Shown one piece after another: positions 19,674-39,651 of a stretch of DNA of 44,842 nt (the first letter of the stretch is position 1; the number at the start of each line of letters is the position of its first letter). Below the pieces are notes generated by a model. It was not told where the DNA came from and ran no database searches. It was given only the letters and a program-made list of their open reading frames with translations. Location: IMG/VR virus record IMGVR_UViG_3300042892_001013, positions 1 through 44,842 of that record. One strand, given 5' to 3'. A program made the translations under genes and the position numbers. Origin of the DNA: a virus.

Positions 19674-19907
19674 ATGAATGAACGAATTCGACAACTTGCT
19701 GAACAGGCTGGGCTAACCACGGTTGCTGATGTCTACCTTATGAAGAAATATATGCCTAACGAAGTAAAGTTCGCCGAGTTGATTGTGCAGGAATGCGCTA
19801 ATATTGCACGTAATGTGGGAAACATTTCTGAACCCGATGACTGGGCGCTGGATAGATGCTATGAGATTGAACAAAGAATTCAAGACCGTTTTGGAGTTGA
19901 AGAATGA
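19674..19907 (+). CDS. Tandem-family small protein 4
   Basis: A 77-aa paralogue: MNERIRQLAEQAGLTTVADV, KFAELIVQECANIA, QDRFGVEE. It is the one copy not started by a cassette; a fresh SD (AAAGGAC) lies upstream. The linker holds NISEPDDWALDRCYEIE. Function unknown. Confidence 0.7.
   Translation: MNERIRQLAEQAGLTTVADVYLMKKYMPNEVKFAELIVQECANIARNVGNISEPDDWALDRCYEIEQRIQDRFGVEE
19890..19907 (+). repeat. SD/stop/start cassette, copy 5
   Basis: TTTGGAGTTGAAGAATGA, one synonymous change from copy 1; ATG 19904 follows. Confidence 0.8.
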
Positions 19908-20095
19908 AAAAAGATTGGGACACCCAAGAACAATCAGATATGTTTGACAAGTTTCTTGACGACACATCGGATTCAAGGTCGCAAACTTGGAAAGGTTGGC
20001 ACGGCCGCCGTGCGCACGGTTACGATGAACTAGAATGGGAAGCATTTCAGTATGGATGGAATGCCGCAAAGGTATGTTTTGGAGTTAAAGAATGA
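19904..20095 (+). CDS. Small protein with family tail only (FGVKE)
   Basis: A 63-aa protein: MKKDWDTQEQSDMFDKFLDD, then DELEWEAFQYGWNAAKVCFG and VKE. The body is unrelated to the tandem family (it has an AFQYGWNAA motif common in phage small proteins), but the last codons are the same cassette with one change. This mixture suggests modular exchange at the cassette. Function unknown. Confidence 0.65.
   Translation: MKKDWDTQEQSDMFDKFLDDTSDSRSQTWKGWHGRRAHGYDELEWEAFQYGWNAAKVCFGVKE
20078..20095 (+). repeat. SD/stop/start cassette, copy 6
   Basis: TTTGGAGTTAAAGAATGA; encodes FGVKE-stop and gives ATG 20092. Confidence 0.75.
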
Positions 20096-20325
20096 ACATA
20101 GATCACGGTGCGATATTTCAACAATGTGTATACGATGCAGATAATCGGTTTGTTGATTTAACACTCAGACCGGTTGCTGTGAATTCCCGTACATTTATGC
20201 TTACTATGACAGACACATCCAACGATGCAGAAATGGACATGATGATTGAACTTTATCTCACAGAAGAAAATTTGAAAAAAGTGATTTACCGTTTGATAAA
20301 TGTATTAGAAGGTATTGGAAAATGA
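20092..20325 (+). CDS. Small protein of 77 aa, unknown
   Basis: Begins MNIDHGAIFQQCVYDADNRF, contains VDLTLRPVAVNSRTFML and ends LINVLEGIGK. Beta-rich start and helical end. Not a member of the tandem family, although it sits inside the array. Its end (GGAAAATGA) gives the start of the next gene, but without the cassette. Function unknown. Confidence 0.6.
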   Translation: MNIDHGAIFQQCVYDADNRFVDLTLRPVAVNSRTFMLTMTDTSNDAEMDMMIELYLTEENLKKVIYRLINVLEGIGK

Positions 20326-20561
20326 ACGAACGAATCATAGAACTGGCTGACCACGCAAAAGAATATGCCAATCAGTGTACAAAGGATCTTGACGGTGACA
20401 TTTCTTGGCACTGGATGGACTATTACACTGAAAAGTTCGCCGAGTTGATTGTTGAGGAATGTCTCTACATTGTCGAAGGTGAAGATGATGGTAGTGCTGA
20501 TACTAAAAGTGTTCGATTGGCAATGATAAGAATGAAACAACATTTCGGAGTTATAGAATGA
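20322..20561 (+). CDS. Tandem-family small protein 5
   Basis: A 79-aa paralogue: MNERIIELADHAKEYANQCT, EKFAELIVEECLYIVE, KQHFGVIE. The variable middle contains DGDISWHWMDYY, echoed in copy 6 (DGHIDWHTQF), so these two are the closest pair. The cassette at the end is altered by one codon (GTT ATA GAA). Confidence 0.7.
   Translation: MNERIIELADHAKEYANQCTKDLDGDISWHWMDYYTEKFAELIVEECLYIVEGEDDGSADTKSVRLAMIRMKQHFGVIE
20544..20561 (+). repeat. SD/stop/start cassette, copy 7
   Basis: TTCGGAGTTATAGAATGA; ATG 20558 starts the 81-aa gene. The SD and spacing are unchanged although the peptide changes to FGVIE. Confidence 0.75.
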
Positions 20562-20803
20562 ATCAAGTCCCGCTCAAAGCACACGAAGAATGGGCCCAGC
20601 AGAGAGTAGAAATTGCCCGGCGTGACACCGATCAGGCCTTGCATTTGGTTGCAATGGCGCATTTGAATTTGATGCAACATCTCAAGTACGGATTTGACCC
20701 AAAGACTGCACACAGCACCTTGATCAGCGTGGGACAAATATATCCTAAACTAAAAGCAAAGATGAATGACTTGACTCGAGAGTTAGAGAATAAAAACGGT
20801 TGA
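20558..20803 (+). CDS. Small helical protein of 81 aa
   Basis: MNQVPLKAHEEWAQQRVEIA, then HLVAMAHLNLMQHLKYGFDP and KMNDLTRELENKNG. All-helical, charged, no known family. It starts from cassette copy 7. Its TGA stop forms part of the TTGACA -35 box of the RNA ligase promoter, marking the end of the array's transcription unit or a new start within it. Confidence 0.6.
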   Translation: MNQVPLKAHEEWAQQRVEIARRDTDQALHLVAMAHLNLMQHLKYGFDPKTAHSTLISVGQIYPKLKAKMNDLTRELENKNG

Positions 20804-20828
20804 CATTAAATGATATTGAGTGTATAAT
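20800..20828 (+). promoter_or_regulatory. Consensus sigma70 promoter for the RNA ligase gene
   Basis: TTGACA 20800-20805 (containing the upstream TGA stop), 17-bp spacer, TATAAT 20823-20828. The leader has AAAGGA before the ATG at 20861. Confidence 0.85.
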
Positions 20829-20860
20829 ATACACTTAGACAGTTAATCAAAGGACTTGAT

Positions 20861-21886
20861 ATGAGGAAGTTAGCAACCATTAGGAAGATTGATGCACTGC
20901 GTCCTATCCCGGATGCTGATGCTATCGAATGTGCAGTCGTAGGTGGATGGACGGCTGTGGTTAAGAAGGGTGAATATGCCGCAGGTGATCTTGCTGTGTA
21001 CTGCGAAATCGATTCTTGGATTCCTCACGCACTGGCACCATTTTTGAGCAAGGGCAAGGAGCCCAGAGTGTTTGATGGTATTCAAGGCGAACGTCTGCGT
21101 ACAATGAAGCTTCGAGGACAGTTGAGCCAGGGGCTGTTGTTGCCATTGTCTACATTGACTATGATAGATTCGGAACTATTTGAAGGACTCGATGTATCAT
21201 TTCCACTAGGCATTGTGAAATACGAAGCCCCCATCCCAGCACAATTGGCAGGAGAAGTCAAGGGCATGTTCCCAGGTTGGATTCAAAAGACTGACCAAGA
21301 ACGTGTTCAAAACTTGAAAGAAGAATTGGACTACTGGCTTAGAGAACAACACGTTTGGGAAGTTACTGAAAAGCTGGATGGCAGCTCAATGACTGTGTAT
21401 CTGCGTGATGGAGAGTTTGGTGTGTGTTCACGTAATCTTGAACTCAAGCCCAGCGAAACCAACAGCCTGTGGAAGGTTGCAGTACGCAATGATTTGGAGT
21501 TGAAGCTTCGTCGTGCCGATCGTAATCTTGCACTGCAAGGTGAGTTGATTGGAGAAGGTATCCAAGGTAATCCATACAAGCAAAAAGGACAGGAATTTTT
21601 CTTGTTTGATATCTACGACATCGATACCAGCAAGTACTTTACTCCTGCCGAACGCAAGGCATTTGTTCAAGAACACGACATCAAACACGTGCCTGTGCTG
21701 GCATTTGGGGCTGAACTGTCAGATACCCTAGGAGTCAACAGCATTGACGGAATTCTGCGTTTTGCAGAAGGTAAATCAGTTATGGGAATGATAGGTTGTG
21801 AACGTGAAGGCGTTGTGTTTAAAAGCAAGGCCATGCAATGTTCGTTCAAGGCGATCTCTAATAAATTTTTGTTAAAAAGTGAATAA
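20861..21886 (+). CDS. RNA ligase, Rnl5 (DraRnl) type
   Basis: A 341-aa ATP-dependent RNA ligase. An N-terminal OB-like domain (MRKLATIRKIDALRPIPDAD ...) precedes the adenylyltransferase core: motif I VTEKLDGSSMTVY with Lys171, motif III-like ALQGELIGEGIQGN, a FFLFDIYD strand, motif IV EREGVVFKS and motif V SFKAISNKFL. N-terminal OB plus this core is the Deinococcus Rnl5 arrangement, which seals nicked duplexes with a 3'-OH RNA end. It may repair tRNAs cut by host defence nucleases, consistent with the phage tRNA genes. It has its own strong promoter. Confidence 0.88.
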   Translation: MRKLATIRKIDALRPIPDADAIECAVVGGWTAVVKKGEYAAGDLAVYCEIDSWIPHALAPFLSKGKEPRVFDGIQGERLRTMKLRGQLSQGLLLPLSTLTMIDSELFEGLDVSFPLGIVKYEAPIPAQLAGEVKGMFPGWIQKTDQERVQNLKEELDYWLREQHVWEVTEKLDGSSMTVYLRDGEFGVCSRNLELKPSETNSLWKVAVRNDLELKLRRADRNLALQGELIGEGIQGNPYKQKGQEFFLFDIYDIDTSKYFTPAERKAFVQEHDIKHVPVLAFGAELSDTLGVNSIDGILRFAEGKSVMGMIGCEREGVVFKSKAMQCSFKAISNKFLLKSE

Positions 21887-21892
21887 GATATT

Positions 21893-22135
21893 ATGAAAAC
21901 GAGCGGAACACCCTCAAGCTCTAGCCCGGGCATAACGGGCTTTATCGAAATATTCGAAGGTCGACTGAATAAGATGAAGTTGCATCTTAAAGAAGAATTG
22001 AGCAAAGCCAAACACGAACGAAATCGTAAGCTGATCAAAAGTCAGTTGGCTGAGGCCCGCAAACTTAACCGGACACTGAAAGACATGCGTAATGCCAATA
22101 CCCGACTGTGTCCACATTGCGGAGAGAAGCTATGA
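21893..22135 (+). CDS. Small protein with C-terminal CxxC zinc half-site
   Basis: An 80-aa frame. The body (EGRLNKMKLHLKEELSKAKH ... RTLKDMRNAN) is a basic helix ending RLCPHCGEKL, a half zinc ribbon that could dimerise. Related phage proteins, as I recall them, begin near the F-EGRL-K region, so the Ser/Pro start (MKTSGTPSSSSPG) looks like poorly conserved leader; an alternative ATG is at 21974. A GC-rich hairpin (21923-21941) lies inside the first codons. Function unknown, perhaps nucleic-acid binding. Confidence 0.6.
   Translation: MKTSGTPSSSSPGITGFIEIFEGRLNKMKLHLKEELSKAKHERNRKLIKSQLAEARKLNRTLKDMRNANTRLCPHCGEKL
21923..21941 (+). terminator. Hairpin that may act as attenuator after the RNA ligase
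   Basis: AGCCCG ... CGGGCT, a 6-bp GC-rich stem with a 7-nt loop, then TTAT. It sits 37 nt after the ligase stop codon and inside the start of the next frame. The U-tract is weak, so termination is only partial or doubtful. Confidence 0.3.
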
Positions 22136-22251
22136 CAGAAGGAGAACGAGCAGGACGCTGGGCTATGCTGTATATCTATACGGTGTTGTTTGCTTTATGG
22201 TTTAATATTGTCGCCATTGCGGTCTGGCATATCAAGGAGTGGTTTTTATGA
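22132..22251 (+). CDS. 39-aa single-TM protein
   Basis: MTEGERAGRWAMLYIYTVLF, then ALWFNIVAIAVWHIKEWFL. Short acidic N-terminus and one long Trp-rich membrane helix. It is coupled by ATGA at both ends (with the zinc half-site gene and with tandem-family protein 6). Unknown function. Confidence 0.6.
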   Translation: MTEGERAGRWAMLYIYTVLFALWFNIVAIAVWHIKEWFL

Positions 22252-22580
22252 ACGAAAGAATTAGAGAACTTGCTAAACAGGCTGGTGATTATGTAAATGA
22301 AGTATATACACCGCCTGTAAGATCCAAGACTCCGGGTAAGATTTGGGAAGATGGTCACATTGATTGGCATACACAGTTTAACGAAAAATTCGCCCGGTTG
22401 ATTGTGACAGAATGTTGTCAAGCATTAAATCCCATGTTGCGTGACATGATTAGTCGCGGACAGGGAGTAGACATGGTTAAACAACATTTTGAAATGAATC
22501 TCAACGAAATCACAACGGCCATGCTGGACCGTACGATTAACCAATGTGAACAACAATTAGCGGAGAAGAAGAATGACTGA
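22248..22580 (+). CDS. Tandem-family small protein 6 with extra C-terminus
   Basis: A 110-aa paralogue: MNERIRELAKQAGDYVNEVY, EKFARLIVTECCQAL, then, instead of FGVEE, VKQHFEMNLNEITTAMLDRT and a Gln-rich end. ATG 22248 overlaps the upstream stop codon and has SD AAGGAG. It lies 1.7 kb away from the main array and lacks the cassette, so it probably represents an older duplicate or the ancestral form. Confidence 0.7.
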   Translation: MNERIRELAKQAGDYVNEVYTPPVRSKTPGKIWEDGHIDWHTQFNEKFARLIVTECCQALNPMLRDMISRGQGVDMVKQHFEMNLNEITTAMLDRTINQCEQQLAEKKND

Positions 22581-24346: not shown

Positions 24347-24904
24347 CTAGGCCATCCAACTGTCAGTGGCCTGTTCTCCGCATAACTGCGTGGATTCTAT
24401 CCACATCTCTTTGGTATTCGTTTCTAAAAGCCAAACTGGATCAGGTGTTTTTAAAGTCAGCCAGCTTTGTTGTCTGCTCCACGGCGGATCGCCTAGTAGC
24501 TCGCCTTCAAGTTGTCCTGGGCCCCAGCTGCTTTGTCCAAAAAATATTCTAAAACGCTCTGGATAATCGTTGTCGGCTAGATGATGAAACATACCAACAT
24601 TGCTGGTCATTGACCAATCGGCATTGATCCTATGTGTTGAATCCATCTTCCAATCACTGTGATGTAACATCCATACTGTGTTGAGTCCCACTGGACCACC
24701 CCAATAGAGATTGAAATCTTGAGCCAGCTCTATGTTTATTTCTTTGAGGACGCTGTTTATTGAATGGCTTGTTGGGCGATTTACACAGAGTGCCAGAGAA
24801 CCTCGATTTGTACTATGAGTGACCAGTAACACTGTTTTGTCAAATCTTGAATCGCTCATGTTAGGAGGAGATATTAATAAATCTCCTTTTTCGATTCTAT
24901 GCAT
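24347..24904 (-). CDS. AlgH/YqgE (UPF0301) family protein
   Basis: A 185-aa protein matching the AlgH/YqgE family: GDLLISPPNMSDSRFDKTVL, GSLALCVNRPT, LYWGGPVGLNTVWMLH, and WGPGQLEGELLGDPPW. Bacterial members are regulatory or chaperone-like proteins of uncertain action, not enzymes. Full length and all blocks are present, so it is probably functional. It sits between the small basic protein and radical SAM A without gaps. A host-derived copy could influence redox or envelope regulation; this is not shown. Confidence 0.85.
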   Translation of the reverse strand: MHRIEKGDLLISPPNMSDSRFDKTVLLVTHSTNRGSLALCVNRPTSHSINSVLKEINIELAQDFNLYWGGPVGLNTVWMLHHSDWKMDSTHRINADWSMTSNVGMFHHLADNDYPERFRIFFGQSSWGPGQLEGELLGDPPWSRQQSWLTLKTPDPVWLLETNTKEMWIESTQLCGEQATDSWMA

Positions 24905-28036: not shown

Positions 28037-29259
28037 TTTTTTAAAAACTCAAATTTTTCAAACGTTTCATCTCTTGCGCCGTCAAGTGTTTTATTATACT
28101 CTAAAAACTTATTCCATTTAGTGTTATCATATTGTTCAGATCCATTAAAAAATCTAACAACATCTCTAATACTATTGCCTACATTTAATTGTAAACCGTT
28201 CAAGTTGTCTTGATGTTTTAGATAAGATTCTAGTTTTACTTTAATTTCTTGCCGGGCTTCACCGGTCCAGATTCTACTGTCTAAGAACTTTGGCCAAGTG
28301 ACAAAATGAACTCCTGTGAACACCTTCATATTTTTGAACCATTCGAACGTTTCGGGGACATAGTAAATGTTCAGCGCCTGTACTGTTATTTTTCCCTGTA
28401 TAAAAACATTAGGTAATTCTTTCTGCAATAGTCTTATGTTATCTTCGATTACTTTGCTATCTGCTCCTGATCTAATATATTCATTAAGATCTGGAGGCCC
28501 ATCTAAACTCACTGCTGCAATAACTTTTTTAAATTTTTTCCAGTAATCAACTACATTGTATTTTTTATTAGATAGCATACTTAAATTAGTTGCATAATTT
28601 AAAGTAATCTTATCAGCGCGATGCATTACACTTTCAAGAATTCTATAATGATCATTGTCGTATAAAGGTTCGCCGCCCGCAAACCAAATTTCATCTACAT
28701 TACTCATCAACTCTGGTAAGTTTTCAAAAAATTCTTCCGGATAACTCTTTAACAATGATTTTTTAGTTAGATTAAGATCTATCATTTCTTGTTGCCAACT
28801 ATCTTCGTGTAGGTGTGATATTTTTTTATAATCTTCAAACCAACGTGTACTATCCATAGGGTGGCACATACGACATTTAAAATTGCAAAGATTGCTAAGT
28901 TTAAATTCTATCCAAGTAGGCTTATTGTTTAAACTATAATCTTCGTTAATAGATTTTAAATTTGTTTCTGCATTAATTACCTGTCTGCCCACTGAAGAGC
29001 TGTTGTACTTCATACGAAGACTTTGGGCGCCAACATCTTCCAGTTTCCAGCAGACATCACAGCGTTCGTTTCTAACGCCGTTTATAAGGTCGTTGCGAAG
29101 CTGTTTCATTTCTTCGTTGTTCCAGGCCTGAAGCAAAGTTTCTTTTTTAATATTTGATAATGCTGGCAAACTTCTGCAGCAGGCCTTTATACTACCGTCA
29201 GTTTTAGTAGATAGGTGTGTAAACGGAGCAATACAAAAAGTTTCTTTTTTTACATCCAT
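28024..29259 (-). CDS. Radical SAM protein D, SPASM-first layout
   Basis: A 411-aa paralogue of C. N-terminal FCIAPFTHLSTKTDG, CC (27-28), LQAWNNEEM, CDVC (67-70); core CNFKCRMC (C125, C129, C132, the same positions as in C), and WFAGGEPLYD. It continues through the usual barrel strands (VSLDGPPDLNEYIRSG, ALNIYYV). It overlaps radical SAM C by 13 nt and the oxygenase fusion by 10 nt, so expression is tightly linked. Confidence 0.85.
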   Translation of the reverse strand: MDVKKETFCIAPFTHLSTKTDGSIKACCRSLPALSNIKKETLLQAWNNEEMKQLRNDLINGVRNERCDVCWKLEDVGAQSLRMKYNSSSVGRQVINAETNLKSINEDYSLNNKPTWIEFKLSNLCNFKCRMCHPMDSTRWFEDYKKISHLHEDSWQQEMIDLNLTKKSLLKSYPEEFFENLPELMSNVDEIWFAGGEPLYDNDHYRILESVMHRADKITLNYATNLSMLSNKKYNVVDYWKKFKKVIAAVSLDGPPDLNEYIRSGADSKVIEDNIRLLQKELPNVFIQGKITVQALNIYYVPETFEWFKNMKVFTGVHFVTWPKFLDSRIWTGEARQEIKVKLESYLKHQDNLNGLQLNVGNSIRDVVRFFNGSEQYDNTKWNKFLEYNKTLDGARDETFEKFEFLKKWMK

Positions 29260-31217
29260 CCGCCTTCTCCGTGTATAATCATATGGTATCTTGTCTCGTT
29301 GCTTTTATTAATTACAATATGGAAATAGCCAATTCTTATTCTATTGGTATCACCAGCCTCCCAAGGAACCTGTCCTAAGTATTCCCAATTCTTGTTCCAA
29401 AAATGCATTTCGCAGCCTTCTGGATTGATTATAGCCATGTTGGTTGCCCAGGTATTTGGATCAGGATTATCAGAATGCAGTCCTATCATTCCGCCTGGAT
29501 CTAGCTTCATTATTCGAAGTCTATGGTATCTGTCTTTAAACTTGTTTTCTTTAAACCAATTAACCAAGTTTGGGCAGTGTTCAATTGCTTCTTGAGTCCA
29601 TTCGTAGGGAGCTGAGTCATTATTGTCATAGCCGTACACTTCATACCCTTCAGTTTTATCATACCCTAATCCGTGCAATACAAAACTTGACCAACCTCTG
29701 TGTAATTGCACTCCTTTAACATAATTATCACTTCTATGACGTGTGAATAAATTAAGATTCTCTAAAGATTTGATCTCATCAACAAAGTCTTTGTAGGGTA
29801 ATTTAATGTCAATTGTTTTGTAAAAATTTCCCACAGCATTCGGTAAACTATTTGGTCCGGAACTTCTATGATTGTTGATTCCAACGCCTGACCAAGAAAA
29901 ATTTAAATTATAGGATAGCAGTTCTGTTAGGTAAGCCTGAAGACTGTCGTCTCGATACAGTTGAGTTAAACTAGGAATGTAGCGTAGTACATTACTAAAC
30001 CAAACATAGGGATGACTAGAAGTTTTCACGGCCTGTTTAATATTATCGTCTAGATGAATTATATCACCTTTAACAAAGTGAAAATTACAAGTTTTAATAA
30101 TATTCCATTTTTCTTTAATTTCAAATAGAAGTTTATCTTCATCTACTGATTGGCCTTTTGAACCAAATCTAATTAGACTATAGTCTTTGTTAAATTCTTC
30201 AACAATGTCTGAATAGCTGTCAAAGTTATAAAGATTATCTAAAATGTATTTTTGAAAGTCTAGACAGTTTTGATTTACATCAACAAAATAGATATTTGAA
30301 TTAGGCTGAAGATCAAATTTCGCAAGATAACTCCACGGAATAATTCCGCTGGCCACAGCAATAAAACAATCAACTTTTAAATTGTTATCAATTGATGTAG
30401 ATTCTGTATTATAGGCCCAAAATCCTGCTTCGGGATTTAATAATGTTTTCCATTTGATTAAAAATTCTTTGTGGCCTTTTACTTGCGTTTCTATTTTGTT
30501 AATTTCAGATAACGGTTTATCTATCAATGCTTCGAGATCATTTGGTCTATTTAAATGATAGGTATAAGTTCTATTGTTTCTAAGTTCTTGAGGTAAGTTG
30601 TGTACAGTGTAATTTTTGTTAATAACAAATTTAATTAGATCATGAAAAAGACAAAATTCTGAATTTTTCTTTTCTATTTGCACAGTTTCTTCAGTTCCTT
30701 TTTTTATCCACAAAGGAGTATAGTTGTCGTGTATATTTGATTCACTTCGGTCGATTAGCGGCCAACTGGTATCACTATATTCAAATGTCTCTTCTATTGT
30801 AAAACCCTCAGTTACTATGTCGGTTATAACTCTCTTAGAAATTATAAGGCATTGCTCATGCAATCCAAAGAAAGATTTCCAGTTATTGTTTTTAATTGAA
30901 TGATCGATGATATGTCCAGCTATTGCAGGATCTGTTTTTATAAATTCTAATAGACCGTTGGCTACAGGGACTGGATTTAAGAAAATAGTTCCCGATGGTA
31001 CTATAAACAAAAAATCTGCAGATTCTATACTTGCCTGTTTTATTATTGTGTTTATATTATCCGAAGCAATAATAGAACTGGCAGTACTATTATCTATTAC
31101 TTCTTTTGCCAAAGTATCACCGGTTGTCTTTGACCAATAAAAGGTTAGATCAGCAAAACTTTTTGTTATTCCTTTTGCTAATTTTCTAGTATCCCAGTAT
31201 CCAAACAGTATTTTCAT
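29250..31217 (-). CDS. Three-part protein: GT-like, methyltransferase-like, 2OG-Fe(II) oxygenase
   Basis: A 655-aa protein. Residues 1-190 look like a GT-A-type Rossmann domain (MKILFGYWDTRKLAKGI ... ADFLFIVPSGTIF) lacking a DxD. Residues ~270-440 look like a SAM-dependent methyltransferase fold (VDCFIAVASGIIPW, NIYFVDVNQNCLDF, FVKGDIIHL). The C-terminus is an aspartyl/asparaginyl beta-hydroxylase-type oxygenase: GLHSDNPDP (H581, D583), YFHIVIN (H633), ETRYHM (R643). ATG 31217 has SD AAGGA. The hydroxylase part, among radical SAM enzymes, suggests hydroxylation of a peptide residue or small intermediate. Confidence 0.7.
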   Translation of the reverse strand: MKILFGYWDTRKLAKGITKSFADLTFYWSKTTGDTLAKEVIDNSTASSIIASDNINTIIKQASIESADFLFIVPSGTIFLNPVPVANGLLEFIKTDPAIAGHIIDHSIKNNNWKSFFGLHEQCLIISKRVITDIVTEGFTIEETFEYSDTSWPLIDRSESNIHDNYTPLWIKKGTEETVQIEKKNSEFCLFHDLIKFVINKNYTVHNLPQELRNNRTYTYHLNRPNDLEALIDKPLSEINKIETQVKGHKEFLIKWKTLLNPEAGFWAYNTESTSIDNNLKVDCFIAVASGIIPWSYLAKFDLQPNSNIYFVDVNQNCLDFQKYILDNLYNFDSYSDIVEEFNKDYSLIRFGSKGQSVDEDKLLFEIKEKWNIIKTCNFHFVKGDIIHLDDNIKQAVKTSSHPYVWFSNVLRYIPSLTQLYRDDSLQAYLTELLSYNLNFSWSGVGINNHRSSGPNSLPNAVGNFYKTIDIKLPYKDFVDEIKSLENLNLFTRHRSDNYVKGVQLHRGWSSFVLHGLGYDKTEGYEVYGYDNNDSAPYEWTQEAIEHCPNLVNWFKENKFKDRYHRLRIMKLDPGGMIGLHSDNPDPNTWATNMAIINPEGCEMHFWNKNWEYLGQVPWEAGDTNRIRIGYFHIVINKSNETRYHMIIHGEGGWM

Positions 31218-31218
31218 A

Positions 31219-32343
31219 TTAGTCCTTGTATAGGTATTCAAAACAAGTTCTATGATCTAATCCTCTTAGCTCATCTATTTTATTCAAATATTCTTTTAGT
31301 TCTTTTAGTTTTTGTGGATCGTGTTTGAGATTTTTAGTCATATTTTTAATTCTATCATTGGGATCATTTTTATATTGTGCTGTTATTTGATCTATTACAC
31401 TGTGTGGTAAAGCATCCAATGTCATAAAGATTGGCCAAAATATAATACTTACATTAAAGTTAAGTGAAAAATTAAATTGATTTGAGTATAATCTAATTTT
31501 ATCAATTTCAAAAATATTTAAAGCACCCACTGCTATTTGTAATTTGACCTTGATATTTTTTGATCTTGTAGAAAGCAGTTTATAATTTTCTAAAAGGCTG
31601 TCATGATTTGTGGGGAATCGTATATATTCATTAATTTGTTTGCCGCCATCTATGCTTAGGCTTAGATTAACTTGTTCAAAATGAGACCACATATCGATCC
31701 ACTCTTGATCGATGTAAGTTCCGTTGGTATCATACCAAAGAACAATATTTTTTGCTAGATCTTTTTCAATTAAAAATTCTATAATTTGTCTATGTTTTTT
31801 TATTAGTAAAGGTTCTCCTCCACTAAAGTACAACACTCGTACCTTTGGAACCCATTCTTGATAGTTGTCTAAAAAACTAGGATGTAGGGGCCAGCGAACA
31901 TTTTCATCCTTCTTAAAAAATTTGAGATGTTCAAAATTTTCATATTCATCATACCATGTATTGCTGTTGTCAGGAGTACACATTATACATTTTAAATTAC
32001 ACAGATTCCCCAATCTCAAATCAACTGCCCATGGAAAATCAACGGCCTGTGTTGGATACGATTTTTTTTCTATTTGAGACCATTTTTGATTTTCAAAACT
32101 TCGACGGCTTGGAATACTTTTTTCTTCGTTAAGTCTACAGGTATCACACTCTGTGGGCCATTTGTTGTTTAAAAATTGTTCTCGAACACGTTGATAATCT
32201 TGACCTTGCCATATGTCTTCTAGGCTATTTTTGTTTACATGAAGATTGCCTAGTGTCTTTGATTGACAACACAGTCTAACTTTTCCGTGATTGGTTGTAC
32301 TTAAATTAACAAAAGGTGCTACACAAAATATATTTTTATTCAT
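31219..32343 (-). CDS. Radical SAM protein E, SPASM-first layout
   Basis: A 374-aa paralogue: FCVAPFVNLSTTNHG, CC (25-26), EDIWQGQDY, CDTC (66-69), then CNLKCIMC (C115, C119, C122) and YFSGGEPLLI. Shorter than D, chiefly by a smaller linker. It has very A+T-rich codon use. It overlaps radical SAM F by 8 nt, and its stop is followed by TATG, the start of the oxygenase fusion. Confidence 0.85.
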   Translation of the reverse strand: MNKNIFCVAPFVNLSTTNHGKVRLCCQSKTLGNLHVNKNSLEDIWQGQDYQRVREQFLNNKWPTECDTCRLNEEKSIPSRRSFENQKWSQIEKKSYPTQAVDFPWAVDLRLGNLCNLKCIMCTPDNSNTWYDEYENFEHLKFFKKDENVRWPLHPSFLDNYQEWVPKVRVLYFSGGEPLLIKKHRQIIEFLIEKDLAKNIVLWYDTNGTYIDQEWIDMWSHFEQVNLSLSIDGGKQINEYIRFPTNHDSLLENYKLLSTRSKNIKVKLQIAVGALNIFEIDKIRLYSNQFNFSLNFNVSIIFWPIFMTLDALPHSVIDQITAQYKNDPNDRIKNMTKNLKHDPQKLKELKEYLNKIDELRGLDHRTCFEYLYKD

Positions 32344-33736
32344 TAAAAATATCCTTCATTTCTGGAAAAGTATCATAGAAAGATATTCCTCTATGTGCAT
32401 CTATTTTTTCTAGATAGTCTTTCATTTCCGGCAATCGTTGACTCCAGTCTTCTGACTTCATAAAGCTGATCATGCCTCGAAGTCGTTTCACTCCGTAGCT
32501 GTTTGCTAGCCAACGTTCTTTAGTTATCTTTCCTCTATCTTTTTCAGATAGACACAATTCCCAGTTTTCTTCAAACCAAGGAATAAACTCTTCGTACTTG
32601 CGTTCACATTCATCTTTGAACCATTGTGGCAATACTTTTACATTTAAGAAAGCTGGCCAATAGACAAAGTGATAGTTTATACCTCCTGCTCCTAACGGCC
32701 ACATATTAACTTTCTTGAAGTTCTGTTGCAGTTTCCATTTCAAGAAGTCTGGAATGTAATATATGTTTAGGGCATTTACAGCGCAGGCAATAGTTACTTC
32801 TACATTGTCTGTGGTCTGCTCGTCAAGTATACGGAATACTTGTTGTGTACGTTCCCACTTGCTGGGATACCGAATGTATTCATTCATAGCACCTATGCTG
32901 TCTACGCTGTAATGGAATCGTACAATTTTAAAGTGGCTCCATAACTCAAACAGATCTTCACGCCATTCTACTCCATTGCTGTTGTAGCGAATCTCAATGT
33001 CTTTGGCACGACCCTGTCGAATAATCTCTTCCAGGATCTCGTAGTGTTCGTCGATGATTAGGGGTTCTCCGCCTGCAAAGTAAACCTGTTGCATATGTGG
33101 AATCTGTTCATAGAACTGTTGCCAGAACACAGGATTTTGTTTGTGCCAATTATAACTACTGCCGTTGATACTGCCCTTGTTATCCCATTGCCATATTTTT
33201 TTAACTCCCTCACTTTCCAGTGTGGGGAACACCTTCTGCCAATCTTTGATCCAGCCACTGCTGTCATGTGGGCTGCACATGATACAGGCCAATTGGCATT
33301 TGGTTCCAAAACGTAGATCAATGTAGGCCAGCTGTGGGGGAACACTACCGTCTTCGTTGGTTTCGTTGATCAACTTGTCTACGCTTACACGTTGTTTCCA
33401 ATACTCAGTTTCCCATTGACGTTTGCTATTATGACCAGCAGCTTCTTCTTTATAACATTTAGTACAGCTAGGAGGTTGTTCGCCGGCCAACATCTGCTTA
33501 CGCACATTCTTCATGTAGTTGCTATTCCAAGCTGTTTGAAAGTCTGTGTTGTTGAGATTGCTTGGGAGACCTTCGTCGTCTTTGAGTACTCCTACTTGTG
33601 CTCCTCCAAGTTTTTTATCGTTGCTGGCACCTACTCCACTGGCATTGGCTGTACAGCACACTCGCATACTGCCGTCTGGTCGAGTGCTTAGATGTACCCA
33701 GGGTAGGATACAAAATGTTTTACTAGGATAACTCAA
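32336..33736 (-). CDS. Radical SAM protein F, SPASM-first layout
   Basis: A 466-aa paralogue, the longest: FCILPWVHLSTRPDGSMRVC, CC (27-28), a ~40-residue insert rich in Gly/Asn, CTKC (91-94), core CQLACIMC (C147, C151, C154), YFAGGEPLII. An extra ~40 residues follow the ALNIYYI block. Its first 25 residues are nearly the same as those of the collapsed remnant at 34519, so that remnant came from an F-like gene. It lies 1 nt after the FkbM gene. Confidence 0.87.
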   Translation of the reverse strand: MSYPSKTFCILPWVHLSTRPDGSMRVCCTANASGVGASNDKKLGGAQVGVLKDDEGLPSNLNNTDFQTAWNSNYMKNVRKQMLAGEQPPSCTKCYKEEAAGHNSKRQWETEYWKQRVSVDKLINETNEDGSVPPQLAYIDLRFGTKCQLACIMCSPHDSSGWIKDWQKVFPTLESEGVKKIWQWDNKGSINGSSYNWHKQNPVFWQQFYEQIPHMQQVYFAGGEPLIIDEHYEILEEIIRQGRAKDIEIRYNSNGVEWREDLFELWSHFKIVRFHYSVDSIGAMNEYIRYPSKWERTQQVFRILDEQTTDNVEVTIACAVNALNIYYIPDFLKWKLQQNFKKVNMWPLGAGGINYHFVYWPAFLNVKVLPQWFKDECERKYEEFIPWFEENWELCLSEKDRGKITKERWLANSYGVKRLRGMISFMKSEDWSQRLPEMKDYLEKIDAHRGISFYDTFPEMKDIFNE

Positions 33737-33737
33737 T

Positions 33738-34376
33738 TTATGACCTTACAAAAAATAGATTAAAATTCTCAACCCTATGAACTTCCCAACCTAACGGTTT
33801 CATAAAATTAACAAATCGCCAGAAAGGAACATCCGATTCAATACAAATGAGCTCTAATTCTGTTAGAGTCTCCCACGGAATACTAACCATTAACTCAAGA
33901 TTAAATGATTCAACATCTATACTTATAAAATTATAATTAGTATTATGAAATATATCTTTTACTTTTATAGTATCTACTATAGTTTCTAATACTTTACCGT
34001 AATAAATGTTTTCATTTCTCAATATTTCTTTAGTGGAGTGTTCAAAAGAAAACCCGCCAACACCATTGCCGACTTCAAAGTGATCCATTCGATGTGTTTC
34101 GTAGAATTTCATTTGAGCTGGATAGTTATTGGGAACCGCAGCAGCTTCTATCAGTCTTATATTTGTTGTTAGATTTCTTTCTTCATAGTTGCTTTTTAAT
34201 CTTTTAAACACCCAAGGAGAAGGTTCAATGACAGTACCCTGCCAACCTAGTTCAGCTAGAGCAAGAGTGTTGCTTGCCGCCACACCATCAAATGCACCTA
34301 TGTCTAGATAACGGCCTATGCGTCCGTTAAAGAAATTTAATATAATTTCTTGTTCGTTGTTTTGTGAATATTTCAT
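33738..34376 (-). CDS. FkbM-type methyltransferase
   Basis: A 212-aa FkbM-family SAM-dependent methyltransferase: RYLDIGAFDGVAASNTLALA binds SAM, GTVIEPSPWVFKRLK follows, then YNFISIDVESFNLELM. FkbM enzymes O-methylate sugars, polyketides or other small molecules, often in surface glycan loci. Its ATG overlaps the stop of the 48-aa remnant (ATGA). Its first 16 codons are repeated 991 bp away as a stub at 35302-35367, evidence of a local duplication. Confidence 0.85.
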   Translation of the reverse strand: MKYSQNNEQEIILNFFNGRIGRYLDIGAFDGVAASNTLALAELGWQGTVIEPSPWVFKRLKSNYEERNLTTNIRLIEAAAVPNNYPAQMKFYETHRMDHFEVGNGVGGFSFEHSTKEILRNENIYYGKVLETIVDTIKVKDIFHNTNYNFISIDVESFNLELMVSIPWETLTELELICIESDVPFWRFVNFMKPLGWEVHRVENFNLFFVRS

Positions 34377-34442
34377 ATTTTAAATTTTCGTGCTTTCATA
34401 TCGTGTGTGCAGAAACAAGAATTAAATGGACATCTTACAGGT
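34329..34442 (-). repeat. 114-nt direct repeat, copy A
   Basis: It matches copy B (35320-35433) with offset 991. The first 98 nt (34329-34426) are identical and three mismatches follow. It covers the 3' end of a radical SAM frame and the 5' end of the FkbM gene. Confidence 0.95.
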
Positions 34443-34519
34443 ATACTGCCATCGGGTCTAGTGCTAAGGTGTACCCAGGGTAAGATACACCAAGTTTTTG
34501 AAGGATATTTTGATTGCAT
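34373..34519 (-). pseudogene. Collapsed radical SAM gene, 48 codons
   Basis: An in-frame chimera. Residues 1-26 (YPSKTWCILPWVHLSTRPDG within it) match the N-terminus of SPASM-first radical SAM F. Residues 29-48 (RCPFNSCFCTHDMKARKFKI) equal the C-terminus of radical SAM G. Everything between, about 350 codons including the CxxxCxxC core, is missing. It ends by ATGA overlap with FkbM. It has no radical SAM activity, but could still be translated as a five-Cys peptide. It lies within and next to direct-repeat copy A, so recombination is the likely cause. Confidence 0.8.
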
Positions 34520-34529
34520 GTAATATGTA

Positions 34530-35300
34530 TTAAATAATTTTTTTAAGAGATTCGTTTATGATTTCTCCTAATTTTTTATTTCCTAGATTAGAAAAATGTC
34601 TGAGATAAGATCTAGGCAGCTCGATTTCCGAACTTAAATTCTTCAATGAATCATTTTTAATTTCATAGTATAAATTTGATGGCAAATCTAATCGAGTGGC
34701 CTTTGGCAAATTTTCAGAATTGGCATGCGGTTCAAATAATGAAAATACAAAAGATTTTAAATTATATTGTTCTATAGTTTGATTTATATAAGCCAAAGAA
34801 AATTTAACTAAATTTTTGTATGTAATTGATTCTAATATATCAAGTTTAAAATCAGTTGGTAAGGATGGGATTCCATAGTGATGTTCGCATATAGCGTCCA
34901 AGGTAGTAGGATTCTTTGAAAATACAGATTGCGGAGGGATAGAAAAAGCAGACCTGTGTTTTATTAACAGCTCTCTTCCCTCAATCTCTTTAGATGAATC
35001 TTCTCGCCAAGAAAAATCTTGTTTTCTTAAAACAAATCGAGGTTCTGAAGTTTCCTGAATAATTAACATCGAGTAATCTTTTAATTTGCCGTTGGAATGC
35101 AAATCGTTGAGAGTCTCAGCAAAAGTGGTATAGCCACCACCACCATATGCAAAAACATCAATTTCTAAATCTTTTAAGCATTTTAAAGAATCATACCATC
35201 CGTACGATGAAACAATGCTCTCTTTAATTGATGATTTTTCATCTCTAGCGTAAGAACCTTGAGTAAGACTACATCCTAATATTAAAACTTTTTTACTCAT
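34530..35300 (-). CDS. SGNH/GDSL-type hydrolase-like protein
   Basis: A 256-aa protein. VLILGCSLTQGSYARDE gives block I with the candidate nucleophile Ser11, YGGGGYTTF the block-II Gly, and the end YLRHFSNLGNKKLGEIINES the block-V His with the usual following Gly and helix. SGNH enzymes remove acyl groups from sugars or lipids. ATG 35300 has SD AAGGA; a seven-residue upstream extension is less likely. The gene lies precisely between the two direct-repeat copies, so it seems to have been inserted between radical SAM G and FkbM. Confidence 0.65.
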   Translation of the reverse strand: MSKKVLILGCSLTQGSYARDEKSSIKESIVSSYGWYDSLKCLKDLEIDVFAYGGGGYTTFAETLNDLHSNGKLKDYSMLIIQETSEPRFVLRKQDFSWREDSSKEIEGRELLIKHRSAFSIPPQSVFSKNPTTLDAICEHHYGIPSLPTDFKLDILESITYKNLVKFSLAYINQTIEQYNLKSFVFSLFEPHANSENLPKATRLDLPSNLYYEIKNDSLKNLSSEIELPRSYLRHFSNLGNKKLGEIINESLKKII

Positions 35301-35301
35301 C

Positions 35302-35367
35302 TTATTTTTCCTTGATAACAAAGAAATTTAATATAATTTCTTGTTCGTTGTTTTGTGAATATTTCAT
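35302..35367 (-). pseudogene. 5' stub of the FkbM methyltransferase gene
   Basis: The frame encodes MKYSQNNEQEIILNFF, identical to the FkbM N-terminus at 34376, then diverges (VIKEK) and stops at 35302-35304. It starts by ATGA overlap with the stop codon of radical SAM G, the same junction that the complete copy has with the remnant. It lies in direct-repeat copy B and marks the original G-FkbM junction. Confidence 0.85.
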
Positions 35368-35433
35368 ATTTTAAATTTTCGTGCTTTCATATCGTGTGTG
35401 CAGAAACAAGAATTAAACGGGCATCTTACCGGT
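35320..35433 (-). repeat. 114-nt direct repeat, copy B
   Basis: Partner of copy A (34329-34442), 98 nt identical (35320-35417) and three mismatches thereafter. It contains the end of radical SAM G and the FkbM stub. Recombination between the copies would delete 991 bp, including the SGNH gene. Confidence 0.95.
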
Positions 35434-36389
35434 TCAAAGGGCCAAGTTAGTTCATCAAGATTATCTCTCTTCCAATTTCCTATTGGTGGACGTACATAAC
35501 ACATGGCATCCCTTCGTATGTCTCCATTTTGTTCTAGATATAATGTATCTATACCAACAAAACAATTCCATCCCTTCCAATTATTTTGTTTTAGAGAAAT
35601 AACTTCTTCAGCGTTTTGTATCTTGATTTCTTTGGTAACTGAGTTTCGCCATAATGTACTTTCCCAATTGGGTCCTTTTGGGGTATTTATTACCTTGCCG
35701 GCCTTGGGAAAGAATGTTGGATTGTCTTCTAACCATTTCCATTCTAGATCAGAATAAGGCCATCGATCATGGTTGCCTTGTTCCCCTATTAATGTTAACG
35801 GTCTTGCTCGTATTAATTCAAACTTGCCATTTTCTACCATATAGTCAATGGTGTCTAAACACTTTTGCCAATGACTGGGTAACATCAGCATCAGTGCATG
35901 ACTTTTTACATTGTTTTCTGTCAGTACATTCAATACATCAGTGCAATGTTCCTTTTCTGCAAACTCTGCATGAACACTCAAGGTAATATATTCAAAATAT
36001 TTTCCATACTCTTGCCACCATCTAACAGTTCTAACTCCGTTGGTAACTAGACAAACAGTATTACCTAAAGAATATATTAATTCTATAACTCTTTCAATGT
36101 CTTTCCAAAGTGTTACTTCTCCGCCTAGCAGTTCAAATTGAATTTTCTTCTTGTTGTAGGGGGCACTTTTATATATCTGATCAATTTTATTAATAATTTT
36201 AGCAGCCTGTTCATAACTGGGCCAAGGGTATGTTCCGTCTTTACATCCTGGGGGGCAATAAACACAATTATTGGTACAGATGTTTCCTACCTGAAAACAA
36301 ACTCTGAGATAATCTGATTGCTCTGCTGTTTGTTGATCAAAAGGTTTGGTATTTTTTAATAACCATTGATTGTAGACATCAGTTGTCAT
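35364..36389 (-). CDS. Radical SAM protein G
   Basis: A 341-aa enzyme with conventional order: CTNNCVYC (C38, C42, C45), FELLGGEVTLW, a long barrel, then an auxiliary-cluster tail (WNCFVGIDT, DAMCYVRPP, RCPFNSCFC). The Cys after the cluster motif (PPGC) is unusual. Its 3' 70 nt are repeated 991 bp downstream as part of the remnant. It begins at ATG 36389, overlapping a short frame with a similar Cys tail. Substrate unknown; peptide-type by analogy. Confidence 0.85.
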   Translation of the reverse strand: MTTDVYNQWLLKNTKPFDQQTAEQSDYLRVCFQVGNICTNNCVYCPPGCKDGTYPWPSYEQAAKIINKIDQIYKSAPYNKKKIQFELLGGEVTLWKDIERVIELIYSLGNTVCLVTNGVRTVRWWQEYGKYFEYITLSVHAEFAEKEHCTDVLNVLTENNVKSHALMLMLPSHWQKCLDTIDYMVENGKFELIRARPLTLIGEQGNHDRWPYSDLEWKWLEDNPTFFPKAGKVINTPKGPNWESTLWRNSVTKEIKIQNAEEVISLKQNNWKGWNCFVGIDTLYLEQNGDIRRDAMCYVRPPIGNWKRDNLDELTWPFEPVRCPFNSCFCTHDMKARKFKI

Positions 36390-36450
36390 TAGTAATTTTT
36401 CTCTCTCTTATATCGTGTATGCATACACATCCCATATCTACATATTTCAC
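36379..36450 (-). CDS. 23-codon frame resembling a radical SAM C-terminal tail
   Basis: Starts GTG at 36450 with SD AAGGAG inside the end of radical SAM H. It encodes VKYVDMGCVCIHDIRERKIT and then NDN, and ends at 36379. The block CVCIHDIRERK matches CFCTHDMKARK at the end of radical SAM G. It is either the decayed tail of a lost radical SAM gene or a small coupled peptide. It overlaps the G start by 11 nt. Confidence 0.4.
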   Translation of the reverse strand: MKYVDMGCVCIHDIRERKITNDN

Positions 36451-37616
36451 TTAAATTGCTCCTTGAATGCATCATATTTAGTACCGCAGGTTTTAGCACA
36501 GACTGCCAGTTTGCCGTCAGCACAACTAGATTTGCCCCAACTCTCGGGAATAACTTCTTGAAAGTATCTGCCATCAACTATGCTTTCTAGACTGTGATCA
36601 ATGGCATTTAATGTGTCTTTGCCCACTTCATCGATGGCCGTCCATATTTGACCACCGTGCTCATTCCAATACCAAACATACATCTGATTGGCTGTCCAGC
36701 AGCAGGGTTGTACAATGCCCTCTGCTGAAATGTAAAGACTTTTTTCTTCTTGCACCTTGCATTTTATTTCTGCTTCGTCCCAGACACGTTCCATGGGTTT
36801 TTTCTTTAGAGGGTCTCTGTGGAACGTCTGTGAGTACAGCGTGTCTTTTACATCGACCACTCTGCTGGGCAAAAACTTCAAGGGTTGATTGTTTTTACTG
36901 ATCTTGCTGAGTTCGTCGATTACTGAATTTCTGTATTTGGGATTGGTTGGAGGTTGCAACAGTGTAGTAGCCAGTCCTCGACGATTGGCAGCCTGATGCA
37001 TTTCTTTGGTCATCCCGCTGCTATTACTGAAAAATCTAGCAGACTTCTTGTATTGGAAACGCTCAAAACCCATGTCTTTGCTAAGAGCTTCTGCAGCTTC
37101 TACCTGATGTTCATTGTGAGCAAACACAATGTAGTCCCAACGAGCACGACCACCTGCGGCAATAAAAGCTCGTGCATTTTCCATTATCTTTGACCATACA
37201 GTGCCCTGTCGGTACAGGTGGTTAGTGTCTTCTAGGCCGTCTAGACTGAATACCACATAGCCCTTGGGTCCTATCACCCGAGCCAACTCTGCCCACCATT
37301 CAGGTCGCTTGGCTGAAGCATTAGTATGCATACTAAGGTTGATGTTGGGGTTGGTAGTTCTAAAATAACTCAGTGCTTCTAGAGTATCTCGAGCTGCGAT
37401 TGGATCTCCAAAATTGCCGCAGAGATAGATCCTATCCAACTGCCTAACAAACTCAGGATCAAATATCTTTTCTATGGCTGCTAGATCAAGTTCAGCGGCG
37501 GGCATCTGTGGGTTAACTTCTCCCCCATTGATGTTGCGTGAGCACATGGGACAACTGGCATTACAGGCTGCTGTGATTTCTAGATGTACTGTTTTAATTT
37601 CGTTGTATCTGTACAT
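36447..37616 (-). CDS. Radical SAM/SPASM protein H
   Basis: A 389-aa SPASM-type radical SAM enzyme in the usual order: LEITAACNASCPMCSRN (C18, C22, C25), LCGNFGDPIA in place of GGE, VVFSLDGLEDTNHLYRQG, then SPASM-like IVQPCCWTA, SSCADGKLAVCAKTCG. Enzymes with GNFGDP-like motifs are frequent in phages and cyanobacteria and of unknown substrate. ATG 37616 is chosen because it starts 2 nt after the stop codon of the upstream gene; a frame four codons longer overlaps it. It is the first radical SAM gene of the cluster in transcription order. Confidence 0.88.
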   Translation of the reverse strand: MYRYNEIKTVHLEITAACNASCPMCSRNINGGEVNPQMPAAELDLAAIEKIFDPEFVRQLDRIYLCGNFGDPIAARDTLEALSYFRTTNPNINLSMHTNASAKRPEWWAELARVIGPKGYVVFSLDGLEDTNHLYRQGTVWSKIMENARAFIAAGGRARWDYIVFAHNEHQVEAAEALSKDMGFERFQYKKSARFFSNSSGMTKEMHQAANRRGLATTLLQPPTNPKYRNSVIDELSKISKNNQPLKFLPSRVVDVKDTLYSQTFHRDPLKKKPMERVWDEAEIKCKVQEEKSLYISAEGIVQPCCWTANQMYVWYWNEHGGQIWTAIDEVGKDTLNAIDHSLESIVDGRYFQEVIPESWGKSSCADGKLAVCAKTCGTKYDAFKEQFK

Positions 37617-37618
37617 GA

Positions 37619-37978
37619 TCAATCCCAATACATTTTATTGTTCTGTTGATAAAAATAATCTTTTTTAACATTAAGCATATCTAGGTAATCTACTCTATGA
37701 TGCATCCCTATGCCATTCTTATTGGCAGTCAATCTTACATAGTTAGCAGAACCGGCCTCAGGACGAGCAGTAGTTGTTTTATGTAGAATACTCCAGTGTA
37801 CTCCAGAATAAACTGCATTGATGCCCTGTGGTTTATCCCAGGTACTGATGAATTCGTTGAACTCGTCAATGGTAAAGGAATATTCAGTTACCAAAGAATC
37901 ACTGATCCTTACACTGAAACTCACCTTGTTTTTTTCTTTAAACAGGTATATTTTTAAATTGCTGGAGAAGGCTAACAT
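37619..37978 (-). CDS. Protein of 119 aa, unknown
   Basis: MLAFSSNLKIYLFKEKNKVS, then DEFNEFISTWDKPQGINAVY and MHHRVDYLDMLNVKKDYFY. An alpha/beta protein; the block HKTTTARPEAGSANYV is distinctive but not of a family I know. It is encoded between the 73-aa gene (3 nt upstream) and radical SAM H (2 nt downstream). The tight spacing shows it belongs to the cluster, perhaps as an accessory or substrate-binding factor. Confidence 0.6.
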   Translation of the reverse strand: MLAFSSNLKIYLFKEKNKVSFSVRISDSLVTEYSFTIDEFNEFISTWDKPQGINAVYSGVHWSILHKTTTARPEAGSANYVRLTANKNGIGMHHRVDYLDMLNVKKDYFYQQNNKMYWD

Positions 37979-37981: not shown

Positions 37982-38203
37982 TTATTCTACTATCAGTTTA
38001 ACATCTCGACCCGGTCCTGTGCAACTGGGAAGATCACCGTACTGAGCCACATAGTCTCGGATCACGGCCTTGTACCAGTTTTCGCTGTTGTGATGAGCCT
38101 GCTGATTGTACTTGTAGATGGCATTGTTGGTGGCTTCAAACACAGTCATTGCCCGTGCAGATTCTTTCTGCAGAGTTCTAAGATCCAACAGGTCCAAGTT
38201 CAT
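37982..38203 (-). CDS. Small helical protein of 73 aa, unknown
   Basis: MNLDLLDLRTLQKESARAMT, then NAIYKYNQQAHHNSENWYKA and GDLPSCTGPGRDVKLIVE. ATG 38203 overlaps the upstream stop codon (TGATG); a TTG one codon earlier is less likely. The middle helix with NSENWYKAVI is reminiscent of small adaptor proteins. Position after the repeat-methyltransferase gene suggests co-expression only. Confidence 0.6.
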   Translation of the reverse strand: MNLDLLDLRTLQKESARAMTVFEATNNAIYKYNQQAHHNSENWYKAVIRDYVAQYGDLPSCTGPGRDVKLIVE

Positions 38204-39651
38204 CAAACTCTGCCTATCAACATCACACGTTTGTAGCCCTTGAGCTGAAGCTCTCCGGCAAATAGCACTTCACGCATGGGGAACTTTTTCATCATGTGAT
38301 CTACACTGTGTACACAGTTCACATGCTCGGGTATATCAAATAGGTTGTTGCTCTGTATGGCCACAATGGGATCACTGTCTAGTTGCTTGAAGCGCAGCTG
38401 GTGAAACCATTCTTCGGTCATATGCTCTGCTGAAGTGTTGATGATCAAATCAGGCAGGAACTTTTCACTGTATGCTGTACCATCTCGAAAGTTCTCCACA
38501 CTCCACTCATAGCCGTTTTTGTGCAGGGTCAATTGGTTAATATCGGTACACACTGCTTTGACCTTGTGTTCAGTGAGATTGTCTAGATTAAACACATAGT
38601 CCGAAGTTTCACAGGCTGCTCGATCTAGTTCTAGTACTCGCATCTTGCGATAGGTCAACTGCTGTTTGTAGATGTTTTTTAATTGGCCAAACCAGCCTGC
38701 CATAACCAACACATTGTGATATGTTACATTGAGATTGGCCAACTCTTGTACCAGCCAAATTTTGCTCTTGATCTGGCTGCGGCTAAAGGCATCTTGAAGG
38801 GCTGAACTGTCTAGATCGAGTTTTAGATATCTCATGATACTTCTAAAGATTGAGTCATGGGGGAATTGTCTATCTAATTTGGCCAATTGAGTTTTAACTG
38901 TAAACTCAGCAAAGTCTTCTTGACTCATGCTTCTTAGAATTTTTGCAGTTTCTGTGCCTAATTCTTCCAGCCCTTGTATTTTCAACATATTGGTGCTGTG
39001 CAGTAACAATGCTTTATAAATGTCTTTGATGTCAACCGAAGTTCTTGTGTTATGGCACAGACTGGCTAGATCACGTAAAATTGCCTGTTCTTTTTCTGGT
39101 TGAGTAACAGTTGCGCGAGATTTTATAAAGTTGGTATTGTACAGTAGAATTGATTTGTAAACTGCTTCTGAAACTGGTTCACTTTTATTGATGCTGTGAC
39201 ATAGGTCAGCTAGATCACTCAACTCTTGACTGTTTGAAGTGGTTTTAAGAACTCGTGTGCAGTAGTTCAATAATATTCGATAAACTTGTTCAGTGTCTGC
39301 ACCCGATTTATTGATGCTGTGACATAGGTCAGCTAGATCACTCAACTCTTGACTGTTTGAAGTGGTTTTAAGAACTCGTGTGCAGTAGTTCAATAGTATT
39401 CGATAAACTTGTTCAGTGTCTGCACCCGATTTATTGATGCTGTGAACAAGATCAGCTAGATCTCGCAACTCAGGGGGCAAGGTGGCAGACAGATAGCGTA
39501 GATGTGATCGTGTGAGTTCCAGCTTGGGGTCTTCGCTCTGTAGGCCACGGGCCACGGAATGCACAAGATCTGCTGCCGTGGGATGTCCAATATACTTGAG
39601 GTATTCTTCCAGACCCAACAAGAACTCACTGCGATTGGCTGTTTCGGTCAT
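38203..39651 (-). CDS. Repeat protein with C-terminal methyltransferase-like fold
   Basis: A 482-aa protein. Residues ~57-185 hold repeats of a 41-residue helical unit (DLADLCHSINKSGADTEQVY, then RILLNYCTRVLKTTSNSQEL), two nearly identical copies flanked by diverged ones. The C-terminal half looks like a class I methyltransferase: VTYHNVLVMAGWFGQL, RKMRVLELDRAACE, VKAVCTDINQLTL, LIINTSAEHMTEEWF. The helical repeats could bind protein and the fold could transfer methyl. The repeats are near-perfect at DNA level, so copy number may vary. It overlaps the next start by 1 nt and the upstream GT gene by 4 nt. Confidence 0.65.
   Translation of the reverse strand: MTETANRSEFLLGLEEYLKYIGHPTAADLVHSVARGLQSEDPKLELTRSHLRYLSATLPPELRDLADLVHSINKSGADTEQVYRILLNYCTRVLKTTSNSQELSDLADLCHSINKSGADTEQVYRILLNYCTRVLKTTSNSQELSDLADLCHSINKSEPVSEAVYKSILLYNTNFIKSRATVTQPEKEQAILRDLASLCHNTRTSVDIKDIYKALLLHSTNMLKIQGLEELGTETAKILRSMSQEDFAEFTVKTQLAKLDRQFPHDSIFRSIMRYLKLDLDSSALQDAFSRSQIKSKIWLVQELANLNVTYHNVLVMAGWFGQLKNIYKQQLTYRKMRVLELDRAACETSDYVFNLDNLTEHKVKAVCTDINQLTLHKNGYEWSVENFRDGTAYSEKFLPDLIINTSAEHMTEEWFHQLRFKQLDSDPIVAIQSNNLFDIPEHVNCVHSVDHMMKKFPMREVLFAGELQLKGYKRVMLIGRV
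39185..39436 (-). repeat. 123-bp tandem repeat (41 codons)
   Basis: The phrase TTATTGATGCTGTGA (plus strand) recurs at 39185 and 39308 (and as TTATTGATGCTGTGAACAA at 39431), exact 123-bp spacing. The two full units differ by only a few bases, for example TAATATT versus TAGTATT. It lies in the methyltransferase-like repeat protein gene and is a slippage or recombination hot spot. Confidence 0.9.

Follow-up and report, generated by a model that had tools for sequence, protein, structure and literature searches.

Mosaic joints in tailed-phage genomes are made by illegitimate recombination, in which a novel junction of separate gene sets is formed close to or exactly at a gene boundary. Such mosaicism of phages is well known; to our knowledge, intermediates are rarely caught, and clean end products are usually observed. 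A hypervariable host recognition cluster has been described in pelagimyophages, two of which differ from each other by radical SAM gene cassettes [PMC7029224]. It was the only paper judged relevant to the genomic context in our literature search, and no paper pairing a twitch domain-containing radical SAM protein with a phage was found with the terms searched.

In the present study, we analyzed a stretch of viral DNA of 44,842 nucleotides (IMG/VR record IMGVR_UViG_3300042892_001013; hereafter, the window), which contains two copies of a 114-bp sequence with a gene for a putative SGNH-fold hydrolase between them. The repeats lie in a slot bordered by two conserved radical SAM genes, H and F. 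This slot is like the cluster of pelagimyophages and cyanomyophages, as the parts of that paper considered here describe it, in being a variable accessory-gene region in aquatic phages. Unlike the present locus, neither a fixed H-F slot nor a direct-repeat joint is resolved in those parts of the paper. The likeness concerns the kind of region, and we claim no pelagimyophage or T4-like assignment for this phage. The locus also differs from ordinary mosaic joints in that one boundary sequence is duplicated and the remnants of both gene ends are readable. We consider it likely that the 991-bp unit is the scar of a recombination of two slot alleles, in which H-G-SGNH-F' was joined to Gtail-FkbM-F. 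The best reading of this joining is that related phages recombined illegitimately in a hypervariable region of a kind already known.

Gene order and direct repeat

All genes of the slot lie on the minus strand. H (36447-37628; Pfam PF04055, E 1e-08) encodes a radical SAM protein and forms the left border of the slot. The right border is F (32336-33736), a gene for a twitch-domain radical SAM protein that matches NF033640 (E 6.8e-131) with 437 bits, above the curated cut-off of 170. H-F pairs are also found in relatives. H is followed by a decayed G2 tail (36390-36446), G2 being a second gene of the G type, and then by G (35364-36389), which encodes a radical SAM protein of 341 amino acid residues (PF04055, E 7.6e-10) and was absent from the named phage records searched. 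After the SGNH gene (34530-35300, with its ATG at 35300; 256 residues) and a short ORF comes an intact gene for an FkbM-family methyltransferase (33738-34376; 212 residues), whose matches to PF05050 (E 4.4e-07, 30.6 bits) and TIGR01444 (E 1.3e-12, 48.4 bits) are above the curated cut-offs (22.7 and 37.7 bits, respectively).

Each of the two joints around the SGNH gene carries a short ORF. Between G and the SGNH gene is a 21-codon ORF with the FkbM head (35302-35367), the TAA stop codon of which is located one nucleotide before the SGNH ATG. The first-pass annotation described a stub of 16 codons; these 16 codons are indeed common with FkbM, but five extra codons follow before the TAA. Between the SGNH gene and FkbM is a 48-codon ORF (34373-34519), earlier taken for a collapsed radical SAM frame. 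It is instead an intact chimera, in which the head of an F-like gene, F' (26 codons, 34519-34443), is fused in frame to a G tail (22 codons, 34442-34373). F' is thus not a full-length gene; only the 26 codons are left, without the radical SAM core. The G stop codon overlaps the ATG of the FkbM stub (ATGA), and the stop codon of the chimera overlaps the ATG of intact FkbM in the identical manner. As judged from the sequence, the short ORFs at both joints lead into the next start codon, and expression of the SGNH and FkbM genes was probably spared thereby.

The direct repeat proposed in the first-pass annotation was confirmed. Copy A (34329-34442) consists of the last 22 codons of the G tail and the first 16 codons of intact FkbM, and copy B (35320-35433) of the G tail and the first 16 codons of the FkbM stub, both on the minus strand. 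The copies have an offset of 991 and agree at 111 of the 114 positions, with no mismatch in the first 98 bp and three in the last 16 bp. Such crowding has a p value of 0.002 for the given end and 0.005 for either end. All three are at third codon positions and synonymous in the G-tail frame. The 98 identical bases suggest that the duplication may be recent; gene conversion could give the same identity. Only two families of direct repeats of 100 bp or longer were found in the window among the matches listed, so that a chance origin of the 114-bp repeat is negligible. The other family is a tandem repeat within the ORF at 38203-39651. There, 123-bp units (39158-39403) are 89% identical, with a third copy at about 74%, and encode a protein repeat of roughly 41 residues. 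The corresponding proteins of two relatives described below are shorter (408 residues in L141 and 276 in L004), which suggests that the repeat number may change between relatives.

In the unit between the copies (34443-35319), the SGNH gene is the sole long ORF, and no ORF for a transposase, integrase, or recombinase was found. No inverted repeats of 30 bp or longer were detected in the window. Thus, the unit has neither of the features by which we would have recognized a mobile element, namely a transposase or integrase, or terminal inverted repeats of at least 30 bp.

A second contig, IMGVR_UViG_3300034082_001676 (the twin contig), corresponds to positions 1-38117 of the window with no mismatches over 38,117 bp, and possibly comes from the same sample. 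It carries the repeat in the same arrangement, and its ends differ from those of the window. The unit, supposed in the first-pass annotation to be unstable, has its long form in both contigs; a form with the 991-bp deletion was not found among the contigs. The twin contig contains ribonucleotide reductase genes, and the window contains a DNA ligase gene. Elsewhere in the window, an aspartyl/asparaginyl beta-hydroxylase domain (PF05118, E 1e-06) forms the C-terminal part of a long protein encoded among radical SAM genes (29250-31223), and an AlgH-like (DUF179) gene (24347-24904; PF02622, E 1.3e-31) adjoins the radical SAM cluster. Short plus-strand sequences at 18697-22283 have common repeated motifs (families D1 to D3) and resemble tandem small related genes.

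Predicted fold of the SGNH gene product

The product of the SGNH gene matched no Pfam family up to an E value of 10 and no NCBIfam model, and PF13472 was not found anywhere in the window up to the same value. A divergent member of the SGNH/GDSL superfamily may lack such a match. A PHROGs match to an unnamed family (E 0.046) and a match in PDB sequences to initiation factor 2 (E 0.012) were both taken as chance.

Structure prediction from the single sequence gave a pLDDT of 36.5. With an alignment of 12 sequences, the AlphaFold2 model had a pLDDT of 66 and a pTM of 0.66. This model was aligned with Escherichia coli TesA over 158 residues (Z 14.3, rmsd 2.8), and GDSL/SGNH enzymes dominated the best 50 VIA-align rows. 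Foldseek gave a metagenomic lipase (E 1.2e-05), and SGNH-domain proteins in a viral structure library also matched the model. The protein has a GCSLTQG motif near the N-terminus and a His residue near the C-terminus. Ser13 (block I) and His237 (block V), numbered according to the first sequence, are invariant in the 12 aligned proteins. The other 11 proteins were chosen from related loci with a regular expression for the motif (13 hits, one of which was dropped); conservation of the Ser motif is thus built in, because the motif was the selection rule, while the common Arg and His residues are not. One of the 11 proteins, L108, by itself matches Lipase_GDSL at a borderline level (E 0.0002), slightly short of the cut-off.

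The classical motif of SGNH/GDSL enzymes includes DxxH. The present protein is like members of the SGNH/GDSL superfamily, such as E. coli TesA, in its predicted fold, a GxSxTxG-type motif, and the C-terminal His, and differs from them in lacking a family profile match and in that Asp is not at the usual DxxH place. The model supports an SGNH three-layer fold for the gene product, which is a candidate hydrolase. The original naming of the gene is therefore upheld by the predicted fold, without support from sequence profiles.

No donor of the SGNH gene was found by tblastn in 50,697 phage records, with E values up to 0.01 and up to 10, nor in genome contigs or, the twin contig aside, in the viral collection. 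These searches used exact 8-residue seeds or a single sequence, a procedure that misses distant relatives. Within them, the twin contig was the only source of homologues close in sequence.

The cargo slot in related phages

We collected slot loci by a scan for F heads (at least 119 stretches), a scan for H (33 loci), and from other searches. The H-F pair was found at a minimum of 111 loci, of which at least 87 are distinct by sequence, with near-duplicates remaining among the 87. Among the matches listed for the distinct slots, the gap between H and F ranges from -1 to 5,030 nt; it is shorter than 300 nt in 14 slots, and cargo is present in 73. The order of H and F is constant in related contigs, and between them there is either nothing or a differing set of genes. 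The first 74 slots gave 82 non-redundant cargo proteins. Among the matches listed, 39 of them are assigned to radical SAM by Pfam, two to FkbM, two to asparagine synthase, two to NifU, and one to sulfotransferase.

We counted SGNH-like genes by motif. Among 69 slots in which no more than 300 nt separate the end of the last gene from F, seven have such a gene in this last place, compared with 0 of 58 other cargo genes (among the matches listed). The seven include the window, counted via F', as well as L074 and L088, which are mutually alike. An additional SGNH-like gene, in L123 and outside this count, is located 62 nt before F. Because SGNH-like genes take the last place before F, the window up to the F' head resembles a slot with H, another gene, SGNH, and F.

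A search for long repeats in 74 distinct slots gave 11 rows in 9 slots; the 114-bp repeat was the only near-identical one among the matches listed, and all the others were 67-89% identical. Short near-exact repeats were seen in 6 of 60 slots with a gap of at least 300 nt, and they are at gene joints only in the window and L007; for the other slots, the positions were judged from coordinates only. Stubs of the F head, G tail, or FkbM head in ORFs shorter than 150 codons were found only in this phage among the loci collected (seven loci, all from the twin contig). As a near-identical long repeat occurs in 1 of the 74 slots, we make no claim of a general scar mechanism across slots.

The genome IMGVR_UViG_3300032295_001031 (L004, also designated G002) has contiguous H-G2-G-FkbM-F with the ATGA overlap at the G/FkbM boundary and no SGNH gene. 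The first-pass annotation had called for a comparison with relatives in which G and FkbM are adjacent without the SGNH gene, and had assumed an ancestral G-FkbM pair that was later split; L004 provides this unsplit arrangement. The L004 counterparts are 70% (G) and 71% (FkbM) identical to those of the window. L004 also has an intact G2, to the tail of which the G2 remnant is identical at 42 of 57 positions (over a stretch in 36390-36446 and the end of H). This remnant suggests a second, smaller scar, and hence that turnover in the slot may have been repeated. In L004 itself, G2 (3921-4945) is flanked by a 28-bp repeat (26/28) that reaches across the H/G2 joint, and behind G2 is a stub of 10 codons that is similar to the G2 head.

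The nearest relative is not the same on both sides of the joint. Identity to L004 at fourfold sites is 93/278 for the five genes upstream of the joint versus 448/791 for the eight genes downstream (Fisher p 2.6e-11), and 22/72 for G versus 28/47 for FkbM (p 0.002). Three upstream genes are nearer to IMGVR_UViG_3300032217_000333 (L141; 163/300) than to L004 (67/189; p 6e-05). L141 differs in its cargo gene and in the genes that follow F. F itself does not discriminate among the relatives, since it is about equally near to L004 (72/137), L044 (77/142), and L141 (75/129). The earlier view of a purely local event is thus not supported: the nearest relative changes at the repeat from one flank to the other, and at least two phage lineages therefore contributed.

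The F' head (65 bp) is closest to the F gene of L044 (58/65), followed by resident F (53/65) and by L095, L054, and L025 (52/65 each), among the matches listed. It has Trp at a position where resident F has Phe; among 63 F heads obtained by pattern, 57 have Phe and 6 have Trp (among the matches listed). The viral collection has the YPSKTW form of the head in five stretches, one of which is F'. Where F' switches to the G tail, L044 simply continues as F. The above identities disfavor a local tandem duplication in which F' would stem from resident F. The proposal that the SGNH gene came with the start of an F-like gene is supported, and that start is not a copy of the resident gene.

Origin of the 991-bp unit

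Under the allele join, one allele, ending in SGNH-F and carrying the KTWCILPW type of F, would have been joined during co-infection to another that ended in G-FkbM-F. F' would have been broken after its 26th codon, and G ahead of its last 22 codons. Because both alleles would have held the same G-tail/FkbM-head joint, it would now be doubled as the 114-bp repeat. An end-to-end fusion of this kind, to which we give somewhat less than an even chance, accounts for the F' head, the switch of nearest relative, and the three mismatches. Against it, no genome with the postulated parental order H-G-SGNH-F was found, and 98 perfect bp between two parents require recent shared ancestry or gene conversion. 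The preference of SGNH-like genes for the place before F is modest, with some near-duplicate slots (L074 and L088) in the count, and the comparison of the F' and F heads rests on 65 bp. At all three mismatch sites, copy A has the base of L004. However, the G tail of copy A is identical to G of copy B at the protein level, differs from L004 in four of nine residues at its start, and is closer to copy B than to L004 beyond those sites; descent of copy A from an L004-like genome thus rests on three bases.

The perfect identity is explained more directly by a fresh duplication. In such a simple insertion, an 877-bp SGNH-F' piece was patched into resident G-FkbM by staggered repair or template switching, with duplication of a 114-bp target, and the mosaic step at that site would be an earlier, unrelated event. 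The uninterrupted G-FkbM-F of L004 fits this explanation. The crowding of the three mismatches at one end and the agreement of copy A with L004 do not, and the switch of nearest relative would have to fall on the same joint; we regard the simple insertion as slightly less probable than the fusion. It is unlikely that a resident G-FkbM-F module was duplicated in tandem and then underwent internal deletions, with the SGNH gene arriving separately. The order G, FkbM head, F head, G tail, FkbM, F does fit two copies of a module, but a single recent duplication would make F' and the repeat equally alike, whereas the F' head is nearer to the other F type even though the repeat core is perfect. The adjacency of SGNH and F also recurs in other slots.

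Perfect repeats of 98 bp can mislead assemblers, the contig is derived from a metagenome, and the twin contig may share its sample. Two co-existing phage variants might therefore have been joined artificially through the repeat. We consider this very improbable: the two contigs agree although their ends differ, the three mismatches mark each copy, the ORFs at both junctions stay open, and the F'/G-tail and FkbM-head/SGNH joints fall outside the shared sequence. The repeats might, alternatively, serve a regulated and reversible loss of the SGNH gene. A deletion between them would restore G-FkbM exactly, and the 28-bp repeat around G2 in L004 is a similar arrangement. However, the unit has no recombinase ORF, no deletion form was seen among the contigs, and comparable repeats are rare in the other slots, so that a purposeful excisable cassette appears the most remote of the explanations.

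If two slot alleles were joined as we propose, the composite could be resolved in two directions. Deletion of 991 bp by recombination of the 98-bp repeats with each other would give back G-FkbM-F, and a crossover from the F' head to the F head would leave G-SGNH-F. It is conceivable, though quite unlikely, that the locus is a natural two-way switch, by which one population holds two modification gene sets and sorts into either; the 98-bp repeats would then lead to the FkbM form, and the F'/F heads (65 bp, 82%) to the SGNH form.

The join itself is ordinary phage mosaicism, and it exposes a slot in which genes are recurrently swapped. As the locus still displays both parental gene ends, it documents accessory-gene exchange in a region rich in radical SAM genes. 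The H-F slot, with at least 87 distinct sequences, is a defined place to study the products of the cluster and the turnover of cargo. If this type of scar recurs, the mechanism of cargo exchange would become testable.
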